Source: Candidatus Brocadiaceae bacterium
Lineage (GTDB): Bacteria > Planctomycetota > Brocadiia > SM23-32
Reading direction: 5' to 3'
DNA length: 13,886 nucleotides
Assembly (NCBI GenBank): GCA_003567495.1
Contig: PWZK01000067.1
Location: forward strand, 1-13,886
Shown: positions 2,279-10,000 of the stretch, one piece after another
Layout: the number at the start of each line of letters is the position of its first letter
How positions within the stretch are numbered: the stretch's first letter is position 1
Made by a program: the position numbers and the translations under genes
The notes under the pieces: model-generated
What the model was told of the DNA's origin: nothing
The model's database searches: none
The model's input: the letters and a program-made list of their open reading frames with translations, nothing else

Positions 2279-3175
2279 CTAGCCCCCCGGGCCCTTCCCG
2301 GTCAGCAGCTCACAGGCCTGAATATATTTTTGGCTTGTTTTCTCTACAACATCTTCCGGCAGCTTCGGGCCGGGCGGGCTGTGATCCCATCCCGATTCGT
2401 CAAGCCAGTCTCGCACGTACTGTTTATCAAAGGACTCCTGCGCCTTGCCCGGGCTGTATGAATCGGCCGGCCAGAAACGACTTGAATCCGGGGTGAGCAC
2501 TTCATCTATAAGCGTGAGCTTGCCGTCGCAAAATCCCCATTCAAACTTGGTGTCACACACTATGATCCCCCTCTCTGCGGCGTAGTCGCGGGCTCTGGAG
2601 TATATTTCGATCGAACGCTCCCGAAGCGTATCTGCAAGCTCTGCGCCTATGAGATCGCCGGCCTCTTTTATGGAAATATTCTCGTCGTGTCCATCTTCGG
2701 CCTTGGTCGCCGGGGTGAAAACAGGCTCCGGAAGCTTTTCGCTCCTGCGAAGCCCCTTCGGCAGTTTTACGCCGCATACCGACCCGCTGCTTTCATATTC
2801 TCGCCAGCCTGACCCGGCAAGGTAGCCCCTCACCACGCACTCCACCGGAACGACATCGGCTTTTTTAACGAGCATCGACCGGCCTTTCAAAATCTCAGCG
2901 TAAGGGGCAGCCTCTGTGCCCATCTCAGCCGGATCGGCGGTGATCAGATGGTTTTCAGTCACATCCGCGAGATAATCCAGCCAGAACAAAGTCAGGGACG
3001 TAAGCACACTACCCTTACGCGGTATGGCGGAGCCTAAAACGCTGTCGTAGGCACTTATCCTGTCGGTAGCTACGATAATCAGGTTGTCATCGAGCTCGTA
3101 GATGTCCCGTACCTTTCCCCTGCTGAAAAGGGTAAGCCGTTCAAAATCTGTCTCCATCACTGCACTGTTTGCCAT
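2279..3175 (-). CDS. purC: Phosphoribosylaminoimidazole-succinocarboxamide (SAICAR) synthetase PurC
   Basis: Joins aspartate to CAIR with ATP to make SAICAR in purine synthesis. From the chosen start it is 298 residues, the longer PurC type similar in length to yeast Ade1 rather than the roughly 240-residue bacterial form. Motifs: SRGKVRDIYEL near residue 19, ATDRISAYD, RKGSVLTSLTLFWLDYL, VVRGYLAGSGW, GHDENIS, IIVCDTKFEWG and LIDEVLTPDSSRFWP. The frame stays open to an upstream ATG at 3212-3214 (311 residues). That ATG and the 13 residues it adds lie largely in a dispersed repeat (module B, 3199-3227) and lack a ribosome site, whereas the ATG at 3173-3175 has AGGA eight bases upstream and gives the family-like N-terminus. 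The stop is TAG. It lies just after glnA on the same strand and may be co-transcribed. Confidence 0.94.
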   Translation of the reverse strand: MANSAVMETDFERLTLFSRGKVRDIYELDDNLIIVATDRISAYDSVLGSAIPRKGSVLTSLTLFWLDYLADVTENHLITADPAEMGTEAAPYAEILKGRSMLVKKADVVPVECVVRGYLAGSGWREYESSGSVCGVKLPKGLRRSEKLPEPVFTPATKAEDGHDENISIKEAGDLIGAELADTLRERSIEIYSRARDYAAERGIIVCDTKFEWGFCDGKLTLIDEVLTPDSSRFWPADSYSPGKAQESFDKQYVRDWLDESGWDHSPPGPKLPEDVVEKTSQKYIQACELLTGKGPGG

Positions 3176-3198
3176 CTTTTGGTCCTTTTTATCAAGTG

Positions 3199-3227
3199 TT
3201 GTCGATGTCAGCATATTAAGCGCCTAC
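3199..3227. repeat. Partial module B repeat across the glnA stop / purC leader
   Basis: This stretch (TTGTCGATGTC, then ATATTAAGCGC and TAC) matches 13355-13382 downstream of gltD apart from four substitutions within GTCGATGTC...TAC. Only the right half of the module B palindrome is kept; the left arm is not recognisable. Its end overlaps the glnA stop codon (3224-3226), and its ATG on the minus strand creates the spurious upstream start of purC. Confidence 0.6.
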
Positions 3228-4567
3228 AGTATCGGCAGATACTTTTCCAGTTCGAAAGCGCTGACATGCGTGCGATAGGCGTCCCACTCTATTTTTTTGT
3301 TTTCCAGGAACTTGTTAAACACATGCTCGCCCAGCGCTTCTTTTACGAGTTCGCTGTTCTCGGTGGCTTCAATCGCCCTGTCGAGATCGCGCGGGAGCGA
3401 CTCTATATTATGCCGGGCGCGCTGTTCGGAGTTCATCTGGAAAATATCTTTTTCCACTGCAGGCGGCAGTTCGTAGCCCTCTTCGATACCCTTCAGGCCA
3501 GCCGCCAGCATTACGGAAAACGCCAGGTATGGGTTGCAGGCCGGATCGGGACAGCGAAACTCCACCCTTGTTGCTTCTTCGTTTCCGGGTTTATACATCG
3601 GCACACGCACCAGGGCCGACCTGTTTCGTCTGGCCCATGATATATAAACAGGCGCTTCGTAGCCACTTACCAGCCGCTTATATGAATTGACCCACTGGGC
3701 GACTACGGAGCAGATCTCACGCCCGTGTTCGAGAAGTCCCGCAATGAAACCACGCGCATCCGTTGAAAGGCCATATTCATTGTCACAGTCAAAAAACGCG
3801 TTTTTACCGTCCCGAAACAGCGACATGTGCGTATGCATACCGCTGCCGTTCTCGTTGAAAAGAGGCTTTGGCATAAACGTGGCGTGTATGCCCTTCTGCA
3901 AGGCGATCTCTTTTACCGCGAGCCTGTATGTCATGGCGGTATCGGCCATGCGGAGCGCTTCATCATAGCGCAGGTCTATCTCATGCTGACTGGGGGCAAC
4001 CTCGTGATGGCTGTATTCCACCGTGATTCCGAGCTTATTGAGCGCCATTATCGTGTCCCTGCGCAGGTCGCTCGCAACATCAAGCGGGGTGAGGTCGAAA
4101 TATCCGCCCTCATCCAGACATTCGGTGCCGCGTGAGTTTTTGAAATAGAAAAACTCCAGCTCCGGCCCGACAAAAAACTCATACCCCATCCCGCTTGCTT
4201 TCTCCAGGTTGCGCCTGAGCACGTGCCGCGGGTCGCCTTCATAGTTCGTGCCGTCGGGCTGAAGGATATCGCAGAACATTCTGCCCACCGCTCCGTTCTC
4301 CGCAGGACGCCATGGAAGGAGCTTGAAAGTGGAAGGATCGGGCATCGCAATCATGTCGCTCTCCTCGATCCGAGCATAACCCTCGATCGATGAGCCGTCG
4401 AAGCCCATGCCCTCTTCAAGCGCTTTTTCCAGCTCGCCGTCCGTTATGGCAAAGCTCTTCAACGACCCCAGGACGTCGGTAAACCAGAGGCGTATGAACT
4501 TAACGTCATTTTCACGCACTGTCTTGAGAACATCTTCCTTCCGCCCTTGCGTTTTTTGAGTCGTCAT
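3224..4567 (-). CDS. glnA: Glutamine synthetase, type I-alpha
   Basis: A 447-residue glutamine synthetase that joins ammonium to glutamate using ATP, acting as a cytoplasmic dodecamer. Motifs in order: GFDGSSIEGYARIEESDM (55-72), FVGPELEFFYF with metal-ligand Glu, HHEVAPSQHEID, NENGSGMHTHMSL, NSYKRLVSGYEAPVYISWA with RNRSALVR, and RVEFRCPDPACNPYLAF. The length matches the I-alpha class: the insertion of I-beta enzymes and the NLYDLPP adenylylation segment are absent. The corresponding region reads YELPPAVEKDIFQMN, so covalent GlnE control is not expected. Arg66 in ARIEESDM aligns by motif with the Bacillus residue (Arg62) tied to glutamine feedback inhibition; this is an inference. The ATG (4565-4567) has GGGGAG upstream. 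gdhA ends 21 bp before it, so the two form an operon behind the sigma-54 promoter at 5909-5924. The stop (TAG) overlaps a repeat. Confidence 0.97.
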   Translation of the reverse strand: MTTQKTQGRKEDVLKTVRENDVKFIRLWFTDVLGSLKSFAITDGELEKALEEGMGFDGSSIEGYARIEESDMIAMPDPSTFKLLPWRPAENGAVGRMFCDILQPDGTNYEGDPRHVLRRNLEKASGMGYEFFVGPELEFFYFKNSRGTECLDEGGYFDLTPLDVASDLRRDTIMALNKLGITVEYSHHEVAPSQHEIDLRYDEALRMADTAMTYRLAVKEIALQKGIHATFMPKPLFNENGSGMHTHMSLFRDGKNAFFDCDNEYGLSTDARGFIAGLLEHGREICSVVAQWVNSYKRLVSGYEAPVYISWARRNRSALVRVPMYKPGNEEATRVEFRCPDPACNPYLAFSVMLAAGLKGIEEGYELPPAVEKDIFQMNSEQRARHNIESLPRDLDRAIEATENSELVKEALGEHVFNKFLENKKIEWDAYRTHVSAFELEKYLPIL

Positions 4568-4588: not shown

Positions 4589-5842
4589 TTAAAAATCCCC
4601 CCACCCGCGCAGTCGCATGGCCTCCACCAGGCGCTCGATAGCGTGCATATACGCGGCCTGCCGCATGGTCACGCCGGGATGTCTGCTGCCATAATCGTGC
4701 AGGCGCAGGAACGCTTCGGTTATCTTCCGGTCAAGGTGCCGGGCCGTTTCTTCCCAGCTCCAATCGTTCTGCAGCCACTCAAAATAAGAAACGATCACGC
4801 CGCCGCAGTTTGCAAGCAAATCGGGCAGCACGAGCACCCCTTTCTCCTCCAGCACCGTATCCGCCTCGGCCGTAACCGGGCCGTTTGCAAGTTCGCAGAT
4901 TATCTTTGCCTCCACATCCGGCGCGTTCCGCCCGGTTATGGCGTTGCCCATCGCCGACGGATAGAGAACATCAACGGGCAGCTGAAGCAGCTCTTCCCTT
5001 CCTATTTCAGTGCCACCTTTATAGTCCGAGACGATGCCGGTCCTTTCCTTGTGCCCGGCCAGCGAACGGGCGTGCAGCCCGTCCTCGTTATAAACAGCCC
5101 CGCGACTGTCGCTTACCGCAACGATTTTTGCGCCCAGAAGCTCTTCGCTGAGGATTGCGGCATACCGCCCGGCGTTGCCGAAGCCCTGGATGGCCACCGA
5201 AGCGCCGCCGGTATCCAAACCGACCACCTTCGCAGCTTCTCGGACTGCATAGCACCCGCCCCTGGCCGTGGCATCCAGCCTGCCCTCTATGCCGCCCAGC
5301 TGCAGCGGCTTGCCCGTGACTACCCTTGGCTGGTAGCTGCCACCGCCGACTACCTGATACTCATCCATCATCCAGGCCATAATCTGCGGATTGGTATTGA
5401 CATCGGGCGCAGGAATGTCCATCTTCTCGCCAATTACGCATTCCATCCGCCGGATATATCCCCTGCTGAGACTTTCAAGCTCCCTCTTGCTCATTACCGA
5501 CGGATCGCACGCAATACCGCCCTTTCCACCGCCCAGCGGCACCCCCGCCACCGCACACTTCAAGGTCATCCACATCGACAACGCTTTTACCTCGTCGGCG
5601 TCGACGTCCGGAGAAAAACGTATGCCGCCCTTATAAGGCCCGAGCGCGTTGTTGTGCTGCGAACGATAGGCGCGGAAAGCTTTTAATTTTCCCGAATCCA
5701 TCTCGACGCATACCGATGCCTCAACTATGATGTCGGGCATTTTAAGTCGCTCGTAAACGTCCGGCGACATCCCCAGCTCTTCCACGGCCGACTTAATGCG
5801 GCCCTTTGCAGTTTGATACGGATTTTCTGTAGAGTTGTCCAT
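4589..5842 (-). CDS. gdhA: Glutamate dehydrogenase (Glu/Leu/Phe/Val dehydrogenase family)
   Basis: A 417-residue hexameric-type glutamate dehydrogenase that interconverts 2-oxoglutarate plus ammonium and glutamate with NAD(P)H. The N-terminal substrate domain has GPYKGGIRFSP (Lys71), MTLKCAVAGVPLGGGKGGI (Lys95, Lys107) and PAPDVNTNP (catalytic Asp147). VVTGKPLQLGGIEGR is typical of glutamate rather than branched-chain enzymes. The Rossmann domain begins AIQGFGNAG (glycines at 220-225), and the second strand ends VSDSRG. Cofactor choice cannot be settled from this. The start ATG (5840-5842) follows GGGAGGGAG; the stop is TAA. It is the first gene of the minus-strand series and shares its transcript with glnA (21-bp gap). 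Coupling GDH with GS behind an apparent sigma-54/NtrC control region suggests an assimilatory, nitrogen-responsive role. Confidence 0.95.
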   Translation of the reverse strand: MDNSTENPYQTAKGRIKSAVEELGMSPDVYERLKMPDIIVEASVCVEMDSGKLKAFRAYRSQHNNALGPYKGGIRFSPDVDADEVKALSMWMTLKCAVAGVPLGGGKGGIACDPSVMSKRELESLSRGYIRRMECVIGEKMDIPAPDVNTNPQIMAWMMDEYQVVGGGSYQPRVVTGKPLQLGGIEGRLDATARGGCYAVREAAKVVGLDTGGASVAIQGFGNAGRYAAILSEELLGAKIVAVSDSRGAVYNEDGLHARSLAGHKERTGIVSDYKGGTEIGREELLQLPVDVLYPSAMGNAITGRNAPDVEAKIICELANGPVTAEADTVLEEKGVLVLPDLLANCGGVIVSYFEWLQNDWSWEETARHLDRKITEAFLRLHDYGSRHPGVTMRQAAYMHAIERLVEAMRLRGWGDF

Positions 5843-5908
5843 GCTTCTGAACTCCCTCCCTTAAAAAAAATGTTTCATGGCCACAAAACATCAACACGAT
5901 AAGCTAAG

Positions 5909-5924
5909 AGCGAATCCCGTGCCA
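5909..5924 (-). promoter_or_regulatory. Sigma-54 (-24/-12) promoter of gdhA-glnA
   Basis: The minus strand reads TGGCACGGGATTCGCT. The GG of the -24 box (5923-5922) and the GC of the -12 box (5911-5910) are separated by exactly 10 bases. The sequence fits TGGCACG-N4-TTGCW at every fixed position except TCGC for TTGC. Transcription would start near 5898, leaving a leader of about 55 nt that contains the gdhA ribosome site. The NtrC-like inverted repeat at 6003-6019 lies at about -112, which is where sigma-54 activators usually bind. The call rests on sequence pattern alone. Confidence 0.75.
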
Positions 5925-5963
5925 TACGCGCCGCTGAAGTCGTAATTCGTCTCAGAACAACAT

Positions 5964-5978
5964 CTTATATCATATAAG
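5964..5978. promoter_or_regulatory. AT-rich palindrome between enhancer and sigma-54 promoter
   Basis: CTTATAT-C-ATATAAG, a perfect 7-bp-arm palindrome centred near -72 of the predicted gdhA transcript. It lies between the NtrC-like site and the -24 box, where bendable DNA or a second regulator's operator is often found. The binding protein is unknown. Confidence 0.35.
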
Positions 5979-6002
5979 GCGAAAATCGTAACGAAAACAG
6001 GT

Positions 6003-6019
6003 TGCACAATGCTTGTGCA
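6003..6019. promoter_or_regulatory. NtrC-like upstream activator site
   Basis: TGCACAA-TGC-TTGTGCA is a perfect inverted repeat with TGCAC-N7-GTGCA geometry. It is the same half-sites and spacing as enterobacterial NtrC sites (consensus TGCACYA-N3-TRGTGCA), differing only at the inner Y and R positions. Extra half-sites follow at once: GTGCAC (6022-6027) and TGCAC (6034-6038). Together these give a cluster centred at about -112 to -135 of the predicted gdhA start, close to the placement of the two enhancer sites at E. coli glnAp2. The site is upstream of a glutamine synthetase operon, which supports the NtrC reading. A different TGCAC-binding regulator remains possible. Confidence 0.6.
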
Positions 6020-6070
6020 GTGTGCACAGTGACTGCACCTTGTTTTAGCATAGCCCGCTTATTTCACGCG

Positions 6071-6112
6071 TTCCAAATAAATTCAAAATTGCAATACCAA
6101 AATTCAAAACAA
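6071..6112. repeat. AT-rich dispersed block, copy 1
   Basis: Begins TTCCAAATAAATTCAAAATT and continues with CAAAATTCA-type units. The same block with a few substitutions is at 13473-13520 downstream of gltD. It is internally repetitive (AAATTCAAAA units) and non-coding. Confidence 0.65.
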
Positions 6113-6130
6113 AAGCGGCTACCGTCTTTT

Positions 6131-6238
6131 TCCCCGAAGGGGATGCTTATTTACAGCCCTGGGTTGGGACGGCGGTCGTTTGCCGGTCCTACTACCCAGG
6201 GAAACTTGTGCGAAACACAGCCTTCCCCGAAGGGGATG
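6131..6238. repeat. Hairpin unit flanked by 15-bp direct repeats
   Basis: TCCCCGAAGGGGATG occurs at 6131-6145 and again at 6224-6238; each copy is itself a CCCC-GAA-GGGG mini-hairpin. Between them CCCTGGGT (6157-6164) pairs with ACCCAGGG (6194-6201). The nested design resembles the other multi-hairpin units here. Function unknown. Confidence 0.55.
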
Positions 6239-6282
6239 TTTAATCGCAAGCCCACCATTCATATGTTATTCGGTTTCGGCCC

Positions 6283-6303
6283 CAACCGAGCCTGCGTCGG
6301 TTG
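6283..6303. repeat. Small hairpin CAACCGA/TCGGTTG
   Basis: CAACCGA (6283-6289) and TCGGTTG (6297-6303) form a perfect 7-bp stem with a 7-nt loop inside the repeat mosaic. No coding role and no U-tract. Confidence 0.4.
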
Positions 6304-6383
6304 AGCCTCTGATTAACCACTACGTATGCCGCGCCTGAAATATGCGGGATAGCCGTACATTGTAGTCATTAGACGTTTTATAT

Positions 6384-6414
6384 AATTTTTTCCGATCCGT
6401 TTTCGAAAAGAATT
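6384..6414. repeat. Degenerate module A palindrome
   Basis: AATTTTTTCCGA (6384-6395) against TCGAAAAGAATT (6403-6414): 10 of 12 positions pair. It shares the GAAAAGAATT arm with the copies at the hisF and gltD stop codons but is not next to a gene here. Confidence 0.45.
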
Positions 6415-6445
6415 CTGGCGCTCGATTTCTTCGCATCTCACACCA

Positions 6446-6507
6446 CCGGGAACGCGGGTGTCACCGCCCGCATGCCGTTAGTGCGGACGAGACGTCCGCG
6501 TTCCCGG
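6446..6507. repeat. GC-rich long stem with an alternative inner hairpin
   Basis: CCGGGAACGCGG (6446-6457) pairs perfectly with CCGCGTTCCCGG (6496-6507), a 12-bp stem closing a 38-nt loop. GCGGACG (6483-6489) can instead pair with CGTCCGC (6493-6499) around a 3-nt loop, using part of the outer right arm, so the two folds exclude each other. Confidence 0.55.
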
Positions 6508-6541
6508 GGAAGACGTGGTTGACTGAGGACTTACGACAATT

Positions 6542-6750
6542 TAGCCCTGCAGGGGCGACATAATCACCAACAGGCCAACGGCGCGCCTTTTTCTTCCGGT
6601 TATATCGTCCCTTCAGGACTCTTTTTTTGCGCGCTTCACCTACCCTATGGCTTCGCTTCGGCCCCATTCGGGGCCTGCGCTCCGCCATAGGCTATAACAT
6701 ATCGCGCTTTCAGCGCTTACTTCGGTCGTTCCCTGGACATTGGATATTTG
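6542..6750. repeat. Module D multi-hairpin repeat, copy 1
   Basis: About 209 bp, co-linear with 13624-13839. Shared landmarks in order: TAGCCCTG(C/T)AGGGGCGACATAAT, GGCGCGCCTTTTTC, CCCTTCAG, a large hairpin, CTATAACATAT, GCGCTT-AGCGC hairpin, TTACTTCG, GGATATTT. The large hairpin has outer arms CCTATGGC (6644-6651) and GCCATAGG (6684-6691) and inner stem GGCCCC-ATTC-GGGGCC (6660-6675). In the other copy the outer stem has changed on both sides and still pairs. Non-coding; the short minus-strand ORF at 6461-6688 is a by-product. Confidence 0.8.
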
Positions 6751-6814
6751 TTTTTTTAGTACACTAACAATTTGTTGTTAGTGTCAGCATATCGAGGGCC
6801 TATACGACCTATAA
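6751..6814. repeat. Module B palindrome joined to module C
   Basis: TTTTTTTAGT (6751-6760), then ACACTAACAA (6761-6770), a TTTG loop, and TTGTTAGTGT (6775-6784), a perfect 10-bp stem. An ATAT-containing tail follows and ends in CCTATACGACCTATAA (6799-6814), identical to 2229-2244. The copy at 13331-13364 has the same T-run and stem length but different, compensated stem bases. Confidence 0.7.
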
Positions 6815-6916
6815 CCCGCATGATCGCCCGGACTGACATGATCTCCTGCCCACTCTTTTAAAAAAAAGGGTTCAATCCCGCCGGGCACGACAATCCGGCT
6901 CGCTCAAAGTGATATA

Positions 6917-6932
6917 CGGCATGGATATTGCA
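6917..6932 (+). promoter_or_regulatory. Sigma-54-type (-24/-12) promoter of gltB
   Basis: CGGCATGGATATTGCA: GG (6918-6919) and GC (6930-6931) are separated by exactly 10 bases, and the -12 box TTGCA is perfect. It matches 10 of the 12 fixed positions of TGGCACG-N4-TTGCA. The predicted start is near 6943, leaving a leader of about 90 nt. A TATAAT (6935-6940) overlaps downstream, so sigma-70 use is an alternative, but no good -35 is present. No TGCAC-N7-GTGCA site was found within 200 bp upstream. Confidence 0.5.
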
Positions 6933-6976
6933 TATATAATATTGAGATGGAGCTATTATTAAAAAATGCACAAAAA

Positions 6977-6995
6977 TTGCGCGGCTTTTGCGCAA
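6977..6995 (+). promoter_or_regulatory. Leader hairpin upstream of gltB
   Basis: TTGCGC (6977-6982) and GCGCAA (6990-6995) form a 6-bp stem with a 7-nt loop, flanked by ATGCAC direct repeats at 6966-6971 and 6998-7003 and followed by a 7-base T run from 7005. The layout could serve as an attenuator or operator in the gltB leader. The stem is short and the T run is nine bases away, so this is tentative. Confidence 0.3.
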
Positions 6996-7032
6996 AAATG
7001 CACCTTTTTTTACCATTAGCAACACTAAAATC

Positions 7033-10000
7033 ATGAGCATAAAGAAAAACACCGCCGGCCGTCGCCGGGGCCCGGGCGAACTTTCCCGGAGGCAAAGGCA
7101 ATCCTGTGCCGGAACGCTTTGCACACGGCTTCGGCCCGCCGGACTTTATAACCCTGCAAATGAACACGACTCATGCGGGGTCGGGTTTCTGGCCGAACTG
7201 AACGCCAAACCTTCACACGAGCTGGTTCAAAAGGCAATAGAAATCCTCGTCAATCTCCAGCACCGCGGCGCCGCCGGAGCAGATGCCGACACCGGAGACG
7301 GGGCCGGGCTTCTGCTTCAAATCCCTGATGCGTTTTTGCGCGGTGAAATGCAAAAACACGGCGTCCCGCTTCCCCCGCCGGGCGACTACGGCGTGGGGAC
7401 GGCCTTTCTCCACCAGGATCCCGACGCGTCACCTGATACGTGGGAATTTATAGAAAAACAGGTAGCCGCGGAAGGTTTTAACCTACTTGGCCGGCGCCGG
7501 GTGCCCGTCGATCCTAATGCGCTCGGAAGCAGCGCGCGCAAACATATGCCCTATATATGGCAGTTTTTCGTCTCGTCAAAATCATCGGGCGATGCGCTCG
7601 AAAGAAAATTATACGTGCTCAGACGCGTTATAGAAAAAAACACATTCAGCGCCCGCATCCAATGCTATATCCCGGGCCTCTCTTCTCGCACAATCGTATA
7701 TAAAGGGCTTATGCTGGCGCCGCAGCTTGCCGCTTTCTACCCGGACCTATCCGACACACGGCTTGCCGGCTCAATGGCGGTCGCGCATCAGCGCTATAGC
7801 ACAAACACCGCTCCGACATGGGAACTGGCTCAGCCGCTGCGCCTTCTGGCACATAACGGCGAAATAAACGCACTACGGGGCAACATCAACTGGATGCGCG
7901 CCCGTGAAAATAACCTGAAATCGGACCTGTTCGGAAAGGATATAAAGAAAATTCTGCCCGTCCTGGACGAAACCGGCAGTGACTCCGCATGCCTGGATAA
8001 CGCACTCCAGCTGCTGGCCTGCTCGGGACGCACGCTGGAACATTCGATGCTTATGCTGATGCCGCAGGCGTGGGGCGAAAAATATCCCATCGGCCCCGAC
8101 CTGCGCGGCTTCTTTGAATATCACGCCGGGCTTATGGAACCCTGGGACGGCCCCGCAGCGGTGGCATTCTCCGACGGGCGGAAAGTGGGCGCCATACTCG
8201 ACCGAAACGGACTGCGCCCGGGCAGATATACCATAACCAATGACGGATTCGTAGTCTTCGCCTCGGAAACAGGTGTGCTCGATATTGCGCCGTCCCGCGT
8301 CAAAACTAAAGGGGCTCTGCGCCCCGGACAAATGCTGCTCGCCGACCTCGATACCGGCTTAGTCGAAAACGACACGCAGATCAAAATGCGCCTTGCCAGA
8401 AAACGCCCCTACCGAAGATGGGTCAGTGAAAACAAAATTTCCATCCGGGGGTTCTACGACGCCGTATCCGGCGTAAAACCTGAAAAATCGCTCCTGCACA
8501 GACAGAAACTTTTCGGCTACTCGCGGGAAGATCTGAAAAACATACTTGTCCCGATGGCCTCCGATGCCGCCGAGCCCACCGGCTCGATGGGCAACGATGA
8601 GCCGCCGGCTGTGCTGTCAGAAAAACCGCAGCTGCTCTACCATTATTTCAAACAGCTCTTCGCCCAGGTGACCAACCCCGCCATCGACCCAATCCGCGAG
8701 GAGCTGGTCATGTCACTTATGACGTTTATAGGGATTTCCGATAACATTCTCTCCGAGGCTCCCGGCCACGCTCGCCTTATCAAACTCAAACATCCCGTGC
8801 TCTCCAATAACGACCTTCAGCGGATCAGGACGCTGCATCTCGATGATTTTGAGTGTGATACGCTGCCCATGGCATTCCCCTGCAACGGCGACGGAGAAAG
8901 CCTCAGGAAAAGCGTAGGGGAGCTATGCAGCCGGGCAGATGCGGCCGTGCGAGACGGGAAAAATATACTCGTGCTCAGTGACAGCGATCTGCCGCCCGAT
9001 ATGACGCCAATCCCCGCGCTGCTCGCCGTATCCGCGGTCAATAAACACCTGATTCAGAGCTGCCTTCGAACACCCGTCGGGCTGATAGTCCAAAGTGGCG
9101 AAATACGTGAAGTCATGCACCTGGCACTGCTCCTGGGCTACGGCGCCAGTGCCGTCAACCCCTATCTGGCCTTCGAGTCCGTCGCAGCCCTGGCGGCCGA
9201 AGACAGATTGTCGCAGAAAACAGGGACCGTAAAAGCAATCGAAAACTACATAAAAGCGCTTTGTAAGGGGCTTTTGAAAGTGATGTCCAAAAGCGGAATA
9301 TCCACACTGCGCAGCTACCGCAGCGCGCAGATCTTCGAGGCCGTGGGCCTGAGCAAAGAACTGATCGATCGCTATTTCGAAGGCACCGCTTCGCGTATCG
9401 GGGGGATCGGAATAGATAAAATAGCCGCCGACGCGCGGGCGCGCCACCGGCTCGCCAACGGCGCGCCCGAACAAAAAACGGCACTGCTCCCATCCGGCGG
9501 ACGCTACAGCGTCCGCACCGACGGCGAACGTCACCTCTGGAATCCTGATTCAATCCATACGCTGCAAAGAGCCGCACGCGAGAACGATTACCGGCGCTAC
9601 AGGCAATACGCCGAAATGATAAACGACCAGTCTCGCAGGCATAGCACTCTGCGCGGGCTATTTTCGTTCAAAACCGGACAGCCGATCCCGCTCGAAGAAG
9701 TCGAAAAAGAAGAATCCATAATTAAACGATTCGTCACCGGCGCTATGTCTTTTGGTTCAATAAGCCGCGAAGCACATGAAACCCTCGCCATCGCCATGAA
9801 CCGCATAGGCGGCATGAGCAACAGCGGAGAAGGCGGCGAAGACCCGCAACGCTACCTGCCGCTGCCCGGTGGAGACTCGCTGTGCAGCGCCATAAAGCAG
9901 ATAGCAAGCGGCAGGTTCGGCGTAACCGCCCAGTATCTGGCCAACGCACGCGACCTGCAGATAAAAATCGCCCAGGGCGCAAAACCCGGCGAAGGCGGCC

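Follow-up and report, generated by a model that had tools for sequence, protein, structure and literature searches.

Promoters read by sigma-54 RNA polymerase carry a -24/-12 element with the consensus TGGCACG-N4-TTGCW, and the classical site of the activator NifA reads TGT-N10-ACA. The sigma-54-controlled glutamate dehydrogenase genes of Bacillota are reportedly of the rocG type and linked to arginine catabolism. PMC12316311 describes sigma-54 control of glutamine synthetase as primarily a matter of Pseudomonadota and the conservation of NtrB/NtrC in Planctomycetota as limited. Our literature search for gdhA-glnA returned only an engineered construct, and a search for NifA with amtB and glnB in planctomycetes returned no title on the subject. 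Here we describe a planctomycete in which the full promoter-plus-enhancer layout stands before a gene string that includes glutamate dehydrogenase, in an assembly without recognisable PII, AmtB or NtrC.

The window, by which we mean the whole stretch of 13,886 nucleotides that was analysed, is one entire contig (C372) of a 2.16-Mb assembly (genome G000; 387 contigs, 82% complete). Its minus strand carries hisH, hisF, purC, glnA and gdhA, and its plus strand carries gltB and gltD. The genes of the proposed operon are as follows.

4589..5842, minus strand: gdhA, glutamate dehydrogenase (best model NF040817, 484 bits; the equivalog cut-off of 750 is not reached).
3224..4567, minus strand: glnA, type I glutamine synthetase (TIGR00653, 524 bits, over the cut-off).
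2279..3214, minus strand: purC, 9 bp behind glnA, a spacing that probably places it third in the operon.

The first gene, gdhA, starts with an ATG at 5842 and is separated by 21 bp from glnA on the same strand; judging by these distances, gdhA, glnA and purC are probably co-transcribed. The nearest named match of gdhA, 70% identical, lies on a contig of a 'Candidatus Brocadiaceae' MAG. From this, the organism is probably an uncultured planctomycete close to the anammox group without belonging to it. The divergent gltBD starts at 6988 or 7033, the start codons behind all upstream distances being our choice. No Rfam family reached its gathering score in the window, indicating no known structured RNA there. 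The region between gdhA and gltB contains the following elements.

5909..5924, minus strand: sigma-54 -24/-12 element TGGCACGGGATTCGCT, 11 of 12 consensus letters, p ~0.002 by shuffles.
5964..5978, no strand assigned: CTTATATCATATAAG, an AT-rich palindrome that lies between the enhancer and the promoter and may be a site of DNA bending or a weak -10 region for sigma-70.
6003..6019, no strand assigned: enhancer palindrome TGCACAATGCTTGTGCA, an exact match to the TGCAC-N7-GTGCA form and a putative activator-binding site.
6022..6038, no strand assigned: further TGCAC/GTGCA half-sites behind the palindrome, starting at 6022, 6023 and 6034.
6917..6932, plus strand: weaker sigma-54-like site CGGCATGGATATTGCA before gltBD, 10 of 12 letters, p ~0.015.

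An earlier, sequence-only reading of this DNA had claimed a minus-strand GG-N10-GC element with a single mismatch, and this can be read directly at 5924..5909, where GG occupies 5923-5922 and GC 5911-5910 and one letter departs from the consensus. The transcription start predicted from TGGCACGGGATTCGCT lies at about 5898, which leaves 56 nt to the ATG of gdhA. The centre of TGCACAATGCTTGTGCA is at 6011, approximately 113 bp upstream of that start (the earlier estimate was 112 bp), and the additional half-sites reported behind it are present as well. Together they make a cluster of five half-sites (starts 6003, 6015, 6022, 6023 and 6034), and five within 45 bp were encountered only once, at this place, in 73 kb of G000 (11 contig pieces). 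To estimate chance, we made 3000 dinucleotide shuffles of a 350-bp stretch upstream of gdhA. A match to the sigma-54 consensus as good as TGGCACGGGATTCGCT arose in 0.23% of them (p 0.0023), an exact TGCAC-N7-GTGCA in 0.07% (p 0.0007) and the two jointly in none (0/3000), in line with the earlier judgement that the combination is hard to ascribe to chance. Across the genome, sigma-54-like sequences with one mismatch allowed number 108, and 99 in the reversed control. Because this is no clear excess, the promoter claim rests on the combination of elements and on the relatives. The sigma factor that such a promoter needs is encoded in G000 as an RpoN of 488 aa with three RpoN domains and the RpoN box ARRTVAKYRK. 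With rpoN present and with sigma-54 sites before glnA of relatives, the predicted sigma-54 promoter with an enhancer driving gdhA-glnA is supported.

On the other side of the intergenic region, CGGCATGGATATTGCA suggests that gltBD could share similar wiring. The same region also holds an inverted repeat with 10-bp arms upstream of gltBD (6761-6784, ACACTAACAA-TTTG-TTGTTAGTGT) and a small hairpin sequence, TTCCCCGAAGGGGATG, that is present twice, approximately 93 bp apart (6130-6143 and 6223-6236). A scan for terminator-like sequences found 10 hairpins there, against 1.7 expected, and the TGCAC palindrome is among them.

We then turned to glnA in related genomes. Nineteen genomes were searched and 17 matched, namely G000, G018 and 15 others; 16 upstream regions were read from those 15 genomes, and the second glnA of G011 was also read. 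The distant glnA of G018, the extra glnA-like matches of G009 (its third), G010, G012 and G015 and a second piece from G006 were left out. The sample of the order comprised 10 genomes, eight of them with glnA. Five of these eight, G000 among them, have a sigma-54 site ahead of glnA or of the operon that contains it, with scores of 11/12 in the window, G009 and G004, 10/12 in G007 and 9/12 in G001. No counted site was found before glnA of G003, G005 and G006 or before the second glnA copy of G009, and in G010-G017, eight genomes of the class that are not of this order, no match before the main glnA exceeded 8/12. The gene in front of glnA in G003 and G005 is purF, an identification made by eye on the translated upstream sequence. 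Within purF, upstream of glnA in G003, there are a 9/12 match and a TGCAC site with one mismatch; these were not counted and illustrate what chance can give. Before purF-glnA of the same genome, TGCAC half-sites are present without a fitting sigma-54 site. In G001, which belongs to the same genus as G000, the upstream region of glnA contains CGCACTGTTTGTGTGCA, a one-mismatch counterpart of the TGCAC palindrome (p 0.015). Its sigma-54 site is weak by itself (9/12, p 0.09), and the two jointly give p 0.0017. The distance from the enhancer centre to the promoter GG is 118 bp in G001, 88 bp in the window and 115 bp in E. coli.

The neighbourhood of gdhA is different. Of 80 gdhA loci compared, only one has glnA on the DNA that was fetched, where it follows gdhA after 342 bp. 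In the congeners G001 and G002, gdhA stands apart, both elements are absent before it, and sigma-70-like sequences were read there by eye. Directly behind it, both congeners have a second, divergent glutamate dehydrogenase gene (L120, 11852-13153; L121, 6909-8282); a single glutamate dehydrogenase gene was seen in G000. Conservation through gdhA was rejected because the congener gdhA lies elsewhere, is followed by a second gdh and lacks a sigma-54 site. Since the sigma-54 sites are found before glnA of relatives while the congener gdhA has neither element, the promoter belongs to the history of glnA, and gdhA appears to have joined it here. The sequence-only reading had named conservation in the orthologous promoters as its test, and the outcome is mixed: glnA of four relatives keeps the -24/-12 element, but the gdhA promoters of the congeners keep neither element. 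The TGCAC element recurs, with one mismatch, in only one of those four, G001, whereas the others have a different enhancer motif.

This motif, CCTAC-N6-GTAGG, was derived from the glnA promoters of G004 and G007, where it occurs without mismatch, and the amtB promoters served as a subsequent check. With one mismatch, it is found before glnA of G009, the second glnA-type gene of G011 and amtB of G004, G009 (one of two copies), G010, G011 and G012. It accompanies a sigma-54 site in three of the five sigma-54-type glnA promoters of the order, those of the window and G001 lacking it. Outside these, the motif with at most one mismatch goes together with a sigma-54 site scoring 10/12 or better at five of seven amtB genes and at the second glnA-type gene of G011. 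It is absent from amtB of G007 and from the other amtB copy of G009, and the main glnA of G011 has neither a sigma-54 site nor the motif. Pairs of motifs 30-31 bp apart, each with at most one mismatch, occur at G004 glnA, G004 amtB and a 386-aa gene of G011; amtB of G010 has a pair with the same spacing in which the second site has two mismatches. A NifA-type activator (534-573 bits with the NifA model TIGR01817, over its cut-off) is encoded 0.3-3.2 kb from glnA in G004, G007, G009 and G011, with PII and amtB between the activator and glnA in G004 and G009. The members of this glnA-linked group are 65-77% identical and share the helix TERIMGLR or a close variant. None was found among the strong activators of G000 (3), G001 (8) and G002 (4), groups being assigned by BLAST on fetched loci, which for G003-G009 cover a part of all activators.

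The strict TGCAC palindrome occurs three times in the 2.16-Mb assembly of G000, against none for the reversed control, and twice in each congener, where the control gives one each. Further TGCAC-N7-GTGCA sites, which the sequence-only reading had proposed to look for, thus exist in G000, but both are intragenic (in a glycyl-radical-enzyme-like gene and in trpS), and no sigma-54-like sequence of at least 9/12 lies within 200 bp of them. Of the seven strict palindromes in G000, G001 and G002, only that of the window has a sigma-54 site scoring 10/12 or better beside it; next to the palindrome within trpS of G002 there is a 9/12 match, and one site of G002 is situated 75 bp from the end of its contig. 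A whole TGCAC regulon was rejected, as only one of the seven sites is convincing. The palindrome inside trpS is present in all three genus genomes (position 1501 of loci L083, L129 and L130; trpS was identified by model in G000 and by eye in G001 and G002) and is probably kept for coding reasons.

That the strict sites form no regulon favours an alternative in which the sigma-54 promoter is real and an unrelated regulator uses the palindrome as its operator, with the sigma-54 activator binding elsewhere or missing from the assembly. Operators commonly take the shape of inverted repeats, and the 18% of the genome that is missing may encode other activators. However, the placement of the palindrome at approximately -113, with the G001 counterpart CGCACTGTTTGTGTGCA at approximately -143, suits an enhancer, and a consensus scan of 5840-7040 for sigma-70-type promoters gave none over threshold where 1.7 were expected. 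We consider this alternative unlikely, even though it survives better than the others.

Five matches to the sigma-54 activator domain were found in G000, three strong and two weak. The first strong one, C123, is a protein of 612 aa with GAF, AAA+ and HTH domains (locus L122, 3430-5268). It scores 513 bits with the NifA model TIGR01817, under the curated equivalog cut-off of 528.85 and hence not NifA by this measure, and 356 bits with the NtrC model (cut-off 558.6). The second, C263, has 458 aa with receiver, AAA+ and HTH domains and scores 388 bits with the NtrC model and 398 bits with another response-regulator model (cut-off 502.6). The third, C353 (L124, 2269-3344), ends at a contig edge, and its first 230 residues match no Pfam family. 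With the genome 82% complete, another activator may be missing.

These proteins bear on the claim that gdhA comes under the same nitrogen-limitation switch as glutamine synthetase. If this switch is the orthodox NtrB-NtrC-PII system of enterobacteria, NtrB-phosphorylated NtrC would bind the site under nitrogen limitation, and the exact NtrC half-site geometry, glnA as the target and the response-regulator activator C263 would all be in its favour. However, C263 is well below both model cut-offs, its helix GERTLYRKIRKYDLG is unlike that of NtrC, and its scanned neighbour is pnp. No NtrC over the curated cut-off was found in G000, the best full-length scores being those of C263 and C123 in an 82% complete assembly whose third activator is cut by the contig end. 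PII gave no match in G000 (82% complete; control search positive in 13 of 14 genomes) or in G001 and a weaker match only in G002, and AmtB gave none in all three genus genomes (G000, G001 and G002; 82-87% complete). Among the 13 genomes searched, PII was found in seven and AmtB in six. In its NtrB-NtrC-PII sense, the claim was not borne out, and we regard the orthodox system as slightly less probable even than the unrelated operator; 'NtrC-type' describes the DNA site, not an established NtrC system. Least probable is pure chance, in which the two elements would be random matches and an ordinary promoter would serve gdhA-glnA, an alternative for which the near-control genome-wide count (108 vs 99) and the sigma-70-like congener gdhA upstream regions can be cited, but which has against it the empty joint shuffle class, the fitting order, strand and spacing of the elements and the sigma-54 sites before glnA in G001, G004, G007 and G009.

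For the preferred reading, a sigma-54 promoter with a TGCAC enhancer, the recognition helix of the activator is informative. The helix of C123 reads SRNTVRNKIKELG, compared with GRNTLTRKLKELG in E. coli NtrC (longer stretches, GISRNTVRNKIKELG and GWGRNTLTRKLKELG); R and N at this helix are among the DNA-contacting residues of NtrC. All seven C123-clade proteins examined have (S/T)RNT at this position, where NtrC has GRNT. Of the strong activators whose C-terminus was seen in G000 and G001, only C123 and its GAF-type counterpart C284 of G001, the two being 75% identical, have such a helix; G005_L220, outside the C123 clade, also has RNT. Given this helix, C123 is the best candidate for the TGCAC site, on a correlation over two genomes. 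The HTH domain gave 19 matches in the PDB, Fis and NtrC-family HTH domains among them, and the protein carries GSFTGA instead of GAFTGA. In the activator tree, which was built without G009_B and has weak deep branches, the C123 clade includes longer proteins of G003-G007 (98% support) and stands apart from the glnA-linked group (100%). Many relatives of C123 are longer at the N-terminus (730-830 aa, e.g. L233, 8053-10452), some with a KaiC-like match; both genus proteins are without this extension. G004 and G007 have activators of the C123 type beside the glnA-linked one, and such proteins are widespread in planctomycetes, so their role need not be in nitrogen control. Many of the C123-like planctomycete proteins among the 120 matches listed are annotated 'Nif-specific regulatory protein'.

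In the mechanism that we propose, RpoN polymerase would wait in the closed state at 5924..5909, and an AAA+ enhancer-binding activator would bind TGCAC-N7-GTGCA and the neighbouring half-sites (6003-6038). The bound activator, C123 or another, would loop to the polymerase, open the promoter and start transcription of gdhA-glnA-purC. The most likely activator would be the GAF-AAA+-HTH protein C123, with a NifA-like domain order and an NtrC-like recognition helix, not an orthodox NtrC. Its signal would be nitrogen- or glutamine-related, and without PII a small molecule may act directly at the GAF domain. Ancestrally, a different activator of the NifA type probably acted on the glnA promoter through CCTAC-N6-GTAGG, and this lineage appears to have lost that activator, changed the enhancer and placed gdhA under the glnA promoter. 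The promoter and enhancer elements with their geometry, the gene order, RpoN and the sigma-54 sites before glnA of relatives are established by sequence. The whole, consisting of a sigma-54 promoter, a TGCAC enhancer, C123 as candidate, exchanged activators and the capture of gdhA, is the best explanation and in our estimate a likely one. We offer only tentatively the specific course of events in which the glnA-linked NifA-type activator with its CCTAC enhancer, which several relatives have together with PII and AmtB, gave way to a GAF-type activator that is independent of PII and has an NtrC-like DNA code (TGCAC-N7-GTGCA, SRNT), after which gdhA was taken in. A glnA promoter kept in sigma-54 form with exchanged enhancers is a more interesting result than the observation itself. 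If true, the NtrC-like DNA code is separable from the NtrC-PII sensing chain, and testable activator-enhancer pairs become available for nitrogen control in uncultured Planctomycetota.

Compared with described systems, the locus is closest at the DNA level to E. coli glnA. The p2 promoter has the same sigma-54 form (TGGCACAGATTTCGCT, 10/12, versus TGGCACGGGATTCGCT, 11/12, with the same scanner), and both have TGCAC-N7-GTGC(T/A) upstream and glnA as a target, the E. coli enhancer TGCACCAACATGGTGCT with one mismatch and that of the window with none. As a description of a DNA site, the 'NtrC-type' of the sequence-only reading is thus a better match here than in E. coli itself. Unlike in E. coli, gdhA comes first and purC, not ntrBC, follows glnA; PII, AmtB and an NtrC over the cut-off were not found in G000, and the candidate activator has a GAF domain in place of a receiver domain. 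C123 shares with NifA (TIGR01817) the GAF-AAA+-HTH order and, at 513 bits, falls just under the cut-off of that model. It differs from NifA in that its candidate targets are ammonium assimilation genes, and the enhancers in this group of genomes are TGCAC-N7-GTGCA or CCTAC-N6-GTAGG rather than the TGT-N10-ACA of classical NifA. Finally, the locus resembles the sigma-54-controlled glutamate dehydrogenase of Bacillota, as described in PMC12316311, in placing a glutamate dehydrogenase gene under sigma-54. Unlike in the Bacillota case, the glutamate dehydrogenase gene here adjoins that of glutamine synthetase.
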